A DNA stretch of 54,123 nucleotides from an uncultured Candidatus Altimarinota bacterium. Its GTDB lineage: Bacteria; Patescibacteriota; Gracilibacteria; BD1-5; UBA6164. Of this stretch, positions 8,426 through 10,487 are shown in pieces. The position numbers and the translations under genes were made by a program. The DNA lies in NCBI GenBank assembly GCA_937944145.1, contig CALDZK010000003.1, forward strand, positions 1-54,123, written 5' to 3'. The notes beneath the pieces are model-generated. The model was not told where the DNA came from, made no database searches, and saw only the letters and a program-made list of their open reading frames with translations. The number at the start of each line of letters is the position of its first letter. The stretch's first letter is position 1.

Positions 8426-9352
8426 TTAAAAAAATCTTTTTAATATCTGCTTAGCAAGCATTATTCAATAATCTATGTCATCCGAATTATTAATATTATA
8501 GGTAGCAACATTCTTATTCCACATCCTCATAGCTCATTGAACATCAGTAGTCTTATTTTCAGGGTCATTTAGTTCATTACTAGTAACTCTTAATAATTCT
8601 AAAATTATTTTAGACTTTTGTATTTTTATAGAAATTGAAACTTTATTTCAAATCTTATACCCTATATATGGTGAGACTGATTTTTCCTCTATTCTTGAAT
8701 CAAGTCACATTATTTTATCTCTAAGTTCTTGATATAATTCTCTAGACTTATCCCATCATTCCTTAAAGTGATCATCAATAGTATATGTTCTAATCTCTTT
8801 GTTCACTTCTTTTAATTCTTTTGTATCAAACTTAGTAACAGTTTTTATACTTTCAGTAGTATTACTAGCTTTAATGGGATTAAATACTATAGTTCAATCA
8901 TTAAACTTCTTGAGTTCCCAAAGATCTATAGCTAGGTCCTTAAAATTAATAGACTCTTTTTGATACCTATTGAAACTATCAGCAATTATCATTATACGAC
9001 TTTGAGACCAATCAATAGATTTTATATCTATAAATTTATCTCTATGTTTTCAAAGAAGTTGTACAAAGTCTGCTTTATTATTAAGCATAAGAGCTAGATA
9101 ACTCATTCATTGATCAATCACTGAGTAACTATTTCACCTCTTATATTCTATAATCACAAATGAATTGCTTTCATTATCATATGCTAGACTATCAATTCTA
9201 AGATTATTTAATTGAAACTCAGTTTTAATAAACTCAAGGCCAAAGACATTTTCTATGTTATCTTCGATCAGCTTTTGCATATCTTTTTCTAGTTTAAATC
9301 AAATTTCTTTTATTGATTCCAGTTTTCATAGTTTATTGTTGTATACTTGCAT
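8426..9352 (-). CDS. PD-(D/E)XK nuclease-like protein with DUF5655 domain
   Basis: A 308-residue protein. The N-terminal part has a restriction-like core: D54 in LRIDSLAY and E69-x-K71 in FVIIEYKRG, followed by a predicted helix with a Q in SVIDQGMSYL. The C-terminal part (about 195-305) resembles DUF5655, seen in predicted transport or DNA-repair proteins (KSRELYQELRDKI, VSPYIGYKIGNKV). It is the first gene after the T-box and lies 17 bases ahead of glyS. Why a nuclease-like protein is coupled to glycine supply is not known. It keeps the genome's TGA-as-Gly use. Confidence 0.75.
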
Positions 9353-9370
9353 ATTTTTCCCTAAAAATAA

Positions 9371-9482
9371 AAAGACCCCAAAGATATCATGATATCTTTG
9401 GGGTCTTTAAGACGGTTCCACCCAAATATTTTACTTTTATCTTTTTATATATTTTCTCCTCACGTGTTCCCATAACGGACTC
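9371..9482 (-). promoter_or_regulatory. T-box leader, glycine type, ahead of DUF5655-glyS
   Basis: Read on the minus strand, GGGTGGAACCG matches the T-box consensus GGGUGGNACCG. It sits in an exact antiterminator: helix A1 TTTGGG/CCCAAA (9426-9421 with 9402-9397), a 7-base bulge UGGAACC (9420-9414), helix A2 GTCT/AGAC with a UAA loop. The competing terminator has 18-bp arms (9371-9408) and a U-run. UGGA in the bulge would pair with a tRNA ending UCCA, the discriminator of tRNA-Gly. A short candidate Stem I lies at 9456-9482; the specifier codon is not certain (GGA at 9459-9457 or UGA at 9462-9460 are possible). Confidence 0.75.
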
Positions 9483-9493
9483 AAGCAAAAACA

Positions 9494-9536
9494 TAAAAAA
9501 AAGAACTATCCATATAGTATAGATAGCCTTTTTTTT
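9494..9536 (-). terminator. Terminator of the SLH-thioredoxin gene
   Basis: On the minus strand a short hairpin, CTATC/GATAG, is followed by TTCTTTTTTTT. A TTGACA at 9541-9536 on the same strand could also be the -35 box of the T-box transcript, so terminator and promoter may overlap. Confidence 0.5.
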
Positions 9537-9548
9537 GTCAAAAGAGAT

Positions 9549-10487
9549 TTATTTGAGTTTTGAGGTTATACCACTGAGGTTATTTGAACCACCCCATTTT
9601 GCGATGAGTTCTCCACTTGCATCTACTTGTACAAAAGTGTGCTGAGAAGTAACTCCGTATTTTTTTCTGAGATCTGTAGAACTATCAAAATCTACTTTGA
9701 GTATAGAGAGATCTGTTTTTGAGAAATCATCTTTTTGGAAGTTTGCTTCTGCTGCTCTACAGCTCGGACACCACGAAGCGTGAAAAAACAGTACTGTTGC
9801 TTCGTTTTTTCCAACGAGACTTGGGCTATAGTCTGCGAACTGACCAGCCAAAACTGTTGGAGTTTCTACTACTTTTTCTTCTACTTCTGGAACTGGTGTG
9901 CTAGATTCTTCTGGAGCTGGTGTTGGAGCTGGAGCTGGTGTACTTGTAGCTACTGCTCATGAAGTAACAGGTTTTGCTCCTACTCAAAATATCCATCCAC
10001 GAACAGCTGTTGAGTTATGATCTGTAAACTTTGCAGTCAAAAGACCATTATCAAATGCTGTATTCATCCAATCTCCTTGCCAGTCACTGGTATTATACGC
10101 TTTTTCAATACCACGTGCTCCAAGAAGAAGTTTAAGACTCTCTGCTTTTGTAATAGTATCATCTGGCCTAAAACTTGCATTTTTCGCGATAAAACCATTT
10201 GAAAGAGCTGCTTCTATATATTTACATCCCCAGTCATCTACTACGTCTCCAAATTTTCCTGTACAGGTATTTGGAACATTTTTTCCAGAGAGATTCATAA
10301 CTATTTTGAGCATTTCTTTTCTCGTAATAGTATCATTCAGACGAAAATCTGCAGCAGATGATCCTGACTTTATTACTCATTTTGCAGCAAGAGACTGAGC
10401 AGAAGAAAGATCTGCTGAAGCTATCGGGCTCAAAAGTCCTATAACTATAGATCAAACAAGAAGTGATCCTGAGAGTTTTTGTAACAT
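9549..10487 (-). CDS. SLH-like secreted protein fused to a thioredoxin domain
   Basis: A 312-residue exported protein. A signal peptide (about 1-25, ending IASA) is followed by an SLH-like region (about 45-175) with the repeated patterns ITRKEMLKIVMNLSG, DDWGCKYIEAAL and FRPDDTITKAESLKLL. A Pro/Thr/Glu-rich linker with Ala-Pro repeats follows. The C-terminal thioredoxin domain (about 212-312) has the active site HASWCPSCRAAE. It likely acts outside the membrane on disulfides while held at the cell surface. The SLH part has two Cys shared with the genes at 12934 and 13664, which are paralogues without thioredoxin. Confidence 0.88.

Follow-up and report, generated by a model that had tools for sequence, protein, structure and literature searches.

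A probable miniature T-box riboswitch ahead of the glyS operon in a Patescibacteria bacterium that reads UGA as glycine

A miniature T-box riboswitch most probably controls transcription of the glyS operon in this bacterium by sensing uncharged tRNA-Gly(UCC), a reading to which we assign a probability of about 0.88. The element lies within the window, which is the whole 54,123-nucleotide stretch of DNA that was analysed, and its parts are listed in Table 1. Conservation of the element, covariation of its helices, competing folds, a matching specifier and discriminator, and linkage to glyS support this reading.

Table 1. Features of the leader and of the glyS operon, in window coordinates
Feature	Position	Strand	Details
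T-box-type transcription attenuator	9366-9502	minus	ahead of the glyS operon
Likely promoter	9514-9541	minus	TTGACA, 16-nt spacer, TACTAT; 10/12 matches in a consensus scan, shuffles give 1.2 such sites
Stem I, single hairpin	about 9441-9502	minus	lower stem 9502-9488/9455-9441 interrupted by a single U-U mismatch; asymmetric internal loop, rich in purines; upper stem CGU 9477-9475/ACG 9465-9463
Specifier codon GGG	9469-9471	minus	in apical loop UAUGGGAAC (9474-9466)
Purine string AAAAG-U-AAAA	9429-9438	minus	in place of RRRNG-Stem III-AA; conserved in alignment A4
Antiterminator	9397-9426	minus	A1 UUUGGG 9426-9421/CCCAAA 9402-9397; bulge UGGAACC 9420-9414; A2 GUCU 9413-9410/AGAC 9406-9403
Intrinsic terminator	9371-9408	minus	helix of 17 bp with a 4-nt loop; U-rich tail ends near 9363
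First operon gene, DUF5655 protein, 308 aa (code 25)	8426-9352	minus	Pfam PF18899, E 1.6e-6
glyS, glycyl-tRNA synthetase, 468 aa	7002-8408	minus	E 2.3e-189 to NCBIfam glycine--tRNA ligase; contains five in-frame TGA codons for Gly

The leader contains two structures that compete for the same nucleotides. The preliminary description gave the letters of A1, the bulge and A2, which match the sequence exactly, and sequence and covariation agree on two helices, A1 and A2, separated by a UGGNACC bulge of 7 nt. The competing terminator that it reported is also present, although its helix is 17 bp and not 18, and the true start of the element is about 20 nt upstream of the range described, at the Stem I hairpin (~9502-9441). 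Terminator and antiterminator overlap and are mutually exclusive. Shuffled sequence gives a mean of 0.1 terminator-like sites. The full leader folds with z = -4.0, and none of 200 shuffles folded as well. A nascent transcript that ends at the 3′ end of A1 forms Stem I and the antiterminator (-19.4 kcal/mol), while by folding energies of the complete transcript the terminator (-24.4 kcal/mol) displaces the antiterminator (-6.2 kcal/mol). Because the terminator is far stronger, the default state of the leader would be OFF and a ligand would be needed to turn it ON, as in transcriptional T-boxes.

The operon that follows has glyS as its second gene, as had been described, behind the gene for the DUF5655 protein, and genome G008 carries a close homologue of the DUF5655 gene in the equivalent place. 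A TATAAT-like block is kept in relatives at a similar distance as the -10 block of the likely promoter, in near-invariant columns of alignment A1. At window 9495-9541, the likely promoter overlaps a hairpin with a T-run behind it, which might serve as well to terminate the gene upstream (9549-10487), the product of which joins S-layer homology and thioredoxin-like domains in one protein. In the window and in relatives, the gap between the T-box and glyS is repeatedly filled by unrelated genes (L020, L021, L023-L025, L028, L061, L067, L069-L071, L170, L172-L174). These encode DUF5655 (twice), DUF262-like, MazF/PemK-like, NYN-like, dCMP-deaminase-like, NUDIX-like, RidA-like, aldo/keto reductase-like, EamA-like and M20 peptidase-like proteins, all names other than DUF5655 being assigned by eye. 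The gap resembles a glycine-controlled site of insertion.

We compared glyS loci taken from the 48 genomes of the family to which the source belongs. Nearly every locus has, upstream of glyS, the core GGGTGGAACCG or a form that differs from it by one base, and behind this core a hairpin that overlaps the antiterminator; the remaining elements were recovered farther upstream with model R1. A search with R1 places the element in 44 of the 48 genomes. Each of the 43 family genomes in which glyS was found has the element upstream of this gene, on the same strand of one contig; the two lie within 300 nt in 27 of these, and a longer gap holding one or more genes separates them in the other 16. From a pattern scan of named genomes, in which chance matches in unrelated taxa were numerous, we used those leaders that showed the full layout.

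The helices vary in a manner that preserves pairing. A lack of A1/A2 covariation in relatives had been named as grounds for dropping the T-box reading, and strong covariation is seen: alignment A2, with 30 leaders, scores 0.457 against a shuffled mean of 0.226, a value reached by none of 500 shuffles, and 83 cells carry two-sided changes compared to 34 in shuffles. Within this alignment, pairs of A1 vary in step (UA/CG/UG and GC/GU/AU) and the outer pair of A2 is CG in 16 leaders and UA in 14. Even within the GGG/CCC run, the central G-C pair is replaced by A-U in L171. Alignment A4, an own-like subset that excludes the source genome and is the basis of model R2, has 94.8% of its cells paired and two-sided changes in 9 of 13 pairs. 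Since the source window is not in A4, the match of this leave-one-out covariance model is an independent test of the element. R2 matches 9396-9480 with 84.4 bits (E 5.6e-16), the only match in the whole source genome, while the next-best site in the window reaches 18.3 bits; this also speaks against the other stated ground for doubt, a covariance score no better than that of shuffled sequence. The Rfam T-box model RF00230 gives the window 9.5 bits (E 5.5) against a cut-off of 93 and has no match in a search of the source genome. Several sRNA and miRNA families score higher at a relaxed Rfam threshold and were ruled out, since what they match is for the most part the terminator hairpin and A+U-rich sequence, at scores far short of the cut-off of each family.

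Upstream of the antiterminator, Stem I is a plain hairpin, a reduced form that fits the unusually short Stem I first described. The hairpin appears in the minimum free energy structure of the nascent leader, where the inner pairing details differ from the assigned structure. In the source genome the upper stem has just 3 contiguous pairs; across the own-like subset A4, these 3 inner pairs are 97.8% paired, with two-sided changes in 2 of the 3. For the lower stem, strands from the same genome pair at a mean of -9.8 kcal/mol, compared to -6.0 kcal/mol for strands from mismatched genomes (p 8e-17). Instead of an internal specifier loop, which is lacking, the apical loop carries the specifier. It holds UGGNA in 44 of 44 family leaders checked, against a chance level of about 20% of shuffled windows for a 5-mer of this type. 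The U before and the A after GGN are invariant in the same 44 leaders, and the codons are GGA in 34, GGU in 6, GGG in 3 and GGC in 1; the third codon base is therefore free and the specifier is GGN. Codon and downstream gene thus agree in amino acid, GGN with glyS in 44 of 44 leaders and ACC with ThrRS elsewhere, and with the glyS linkage this bears out the assignment of a glycine T-box to this operon. A UGA at 9462-9460, in the 3′ strand of the upper stem, was ruled out as specifier, being outside the loop and not conserved.

Which glycine tRNA the leader would bind is a question raised by the genetic code of this organism. Its description as a UGA-Gly bacterium agrees with the five in-frame TGA codons of glyS and with a gene for tRNA-Gly(UCA), which is 79 nt long, has U73 and an encoded CCA (G000:C10:20780 region, locus L347 1501-1579, minus strand). 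ARAGORN names this gene tRNA-SeC(tca) under the bacterial code and tRNA-Gly(tca) under code 25, and an RF00005 search at E 0.1 misses it. Among our pattern searches, the first demanded a T-loop letter that the gene does not have, the second listed it, as L110, among many chance matches, and the third, anchored on CGCTCCA, singled the gene out. The only GGN-reading tRNA found in the source genome is tRNA-Gly(UCC), also with U73, in a tRNA list that is incomplete, so that a GCC isoacceptor may exist as well. The UGGA of the bulge is complementary to U73 of tRNA-Gly(UCC), and both glycine tRNAs end in UCCA. The preliminary description took this bulge to predict tRNA-Gly, and it does fit; the fit is not exclusive, as U73 is also found on tRNA-Thr, tRNA-Ser(GGA) and tRNA-Cys of the source genome. 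The bulge cannot pick out a glycine tRNA, and specificity must therefore come from the specifier.

The specifier speaks for the ordinary glycine tRNA. GGN pairs with anticodon UCC, while anticodon UCA would meet a G at codon position 1, and we infer that the T-box is specific for tRNA-Gly(UCC). By superwobble, a tRNA with an unmodified U34 could decode the whole GGN codon box (PMC13092985), and tRNA-Gly(UCC) may do so in the source organism. It had also been suggested that the T-box might sense charging of the recoding tRNA, and one can construct such a reading, in which the UGG of the loop pairs with anticodon UCA through a U34-G wobble and tRNA-Gly(UCA) is sensed alone or additionally. This UGG is invariant in 44 of 44 leaders, such a tRNA is encoded, and its UCCA end means that the bulge would accept it. 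Yet UGA, the better partner, occurs at the site in 0 of 44 leaders, while GGN explains a full codon with a free third base followed by an invariant A. The U also precedes ACC in short Thr leaders elsewhere in the phylum (L213, L215, L219, L220, L222) and is found in Gly leaders outside the order, ahead of glyS genes without in-frame TGA (L155, L199, L205). The same U in both kinds of leader marks it as a part of the loop architecture, and we regard sensing of the recoding tRNA as very improbable.

Between Stem I and the antiterminator, neither the sequence nor the fold of the leader contains a Stem II. Published T-boxes have the arrangement RRRNG-Stem III-AA (PMC7778990; PMC7583486), and in the published discriminator Stem III is indispensable, and the main sensor of the 3′-aminoacyl group is the basal G-U pair of A2 (PMC7583486). 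In the source genome the Stem III hairpin is absent, and among the relatives it is present in 15 of 44 and missing in 29. The base of A2 is G9413-C9403, and of 43 scored leaders 41 have G-C here and 2 have G-U. In another family of the same order some members retain the G-U pair (L151, L153, L160-L163), and the G-C state may therefore be derived. These two losses, of Stem III and of the G-U steric sieve, would suit a degenerate T-box that binds tRNA-Gly with no readout of charging and so senses total tRNA-Gly. We consider this hardly probable, as the purine string, which rejects 2′-aminoacyl groups, is retained, and linkage to an aminoacyl-tRNA synthetase favours sensing of charging.

The same absence of two features held necessary for charging sensing could be read more radically: the leader may be a plain attenuator or a protein-binding leader with a trigger other than tRNA, its T-box letters being coincidental and the tRNA response a prediction. 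Such a coincidence would hardly explain the 7-nt bulge UGGNACC, however, nor the matches found with it. The N of the bulge fits N73 of the tRNA that belongs to the synthetase encoded downstream, with A for Gly and Thr, U for Ile and C for Asp, and in the Gly and Thr leaders the loop codon agrees with that amino acid too. A leader of this kind is thus extremely unlikely.

Under the charging-sensing T-box that we prefer, the leader would fold during its synthesis into one hairpin, whose apical-loop GGG (GGN in relatives), along with the A that follows, would be offered to anticodon UCC. The free UCCA end of an uncharged tRNA would then pair with the UGGA of the bulge and stabilize the antiterminator against the much stronger terminator. 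With the antiterminator held, RNA polymerase would go on to transcribe the DUF5655 gene and glyS. On a tRNA loaded with glycine, the 3′ end presumably cannot fit, so that the terminator would form and transcription would end. Binding of the tRNA, sensing of its charging and the choice of isoacceptor are the predicted steps of this scheme.

Other T-boxes occur in the class and phylum. Searches with R1 and RF00230 found them before genes for ThrRS, IleRS, AspRS or AspRS/AsnRS-type, TrpRS and GlyRS, and also before threonine synthase, argininosuccinate synthase and ornithine carbamoyltransferase-like genes. NCBIfam named one locus each of argG, ileS, AspRS/AsnRS-type, trpS, thrC, thrS and glyS, and the other genes were named by eye from their N-termini. 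RF00230 has matches in 36 of 353 class genomes at E <= 0.01, with 0 of 353 over the cut-off, which was reached in two control genomes. The T-box counts in the class and phylum are lower bounds, since weak matches are lost, and the weakest matches may include chance ones. Full-length canonical T-boxes, all under the Rfam cut-off, stand before argininosuccinate synthase and ornithine carbamoyltransferase-like genes (L175-L181 and L187, in G243, G240, G283, G285, G265, G286, G241 and G311). Short Thr T-boxes (L213, L215, L217, L219, L220, L222, L253) have ACC in the apical loop, as C-ACC-A or, in hairpins built like that of the glyS leader, as U-ACC-A, and lie mostly before thrS; ThrRS is confirmed downstream of L213, and the nearest ORF to L219 is not thrS. 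Three family genomes contain a second T-box (L167, L168, L169), whose bulge is UGGU ahead of IleRS and UGGC ahead of AspRS, and these bulges fit A73 of tRNA-Ile and G73 of tRNA-Asp in the source genome, respectively.

The mapping of T-boxes has centred on Firmicutes, Actinobacteria and a small number of other phyla (PMC2494555), and within the open-access papers that we searched, we found none that links T-boxes with CPR or Patescibacteria. Reduced, host-dependent bacteria with few known regulators appear to use T-boxes that fall below detection by the standard model. We lean towards the broader view that tRNA charging is sensed by a minimal T-box of ~110 nt, in which ten single-stranded, purine-rich bases join an apical-codon hairpin to an antiterminator and which has no need of Stem II, Stem III or the G-U sieve, and that together with fuller kinds it forms an overlooked, phylum-wide regulatory layer in Patescibacteria. 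The miniature form, conserved yet without Stem III and the G-U pair, directly probes which parts of a T-box are needed. It also suggests that, in an organism in which UGA means glycine, glyS is tuned to the ordinary glycine tRNA, not the recoding one.

The closest known system is the canonical glycine T-box of glyQS in Bacillus and its relatives (RF00230). Both have an antiterminator with a UGGAACC bulge, an overlapping terminator, a GGN specifier, no Stem II, and control of glycyl-tRNA synthetase, and 15 of the 44 relatives share a Stem III with RRRNG...AA flanks. Unlike the canonical form, the source element has no internal specifier loop, no long Stem I and no Stem III, its specifier is apical, G-C takes the place of G-U at the base of A2, and its score lies below the Rfam cut-off. 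The full-length T-boxes before argG/argF-like genes belong to the same phylum class and also have the T-box bulge and a terminator, but they match RF00230 positions 1-219, with a long Stem I and all stems, while the source element consists of a hairpin and an antiterminator. A short Stem I with the specifier in its apical loop is shared with the ultrashort translational T-boxes of ileS in Actinobacteria (Sherwood 2015, as cited in PMC7583486). Apical-loop specifiers are already known from these ultrashort Stem I T-boxes (PMC7583486), so this single trait is not new. The ultrashort T-boxes work at the level of translation and rely on Stem II, which goes with a sequestrator of the ribosome binding site, whereas the source element has a terminator with a U-tail, no Stem II and no such sequestrator. 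By its core features the glyS leader element is a T-box, and by its architecture it is a new miniature variant.
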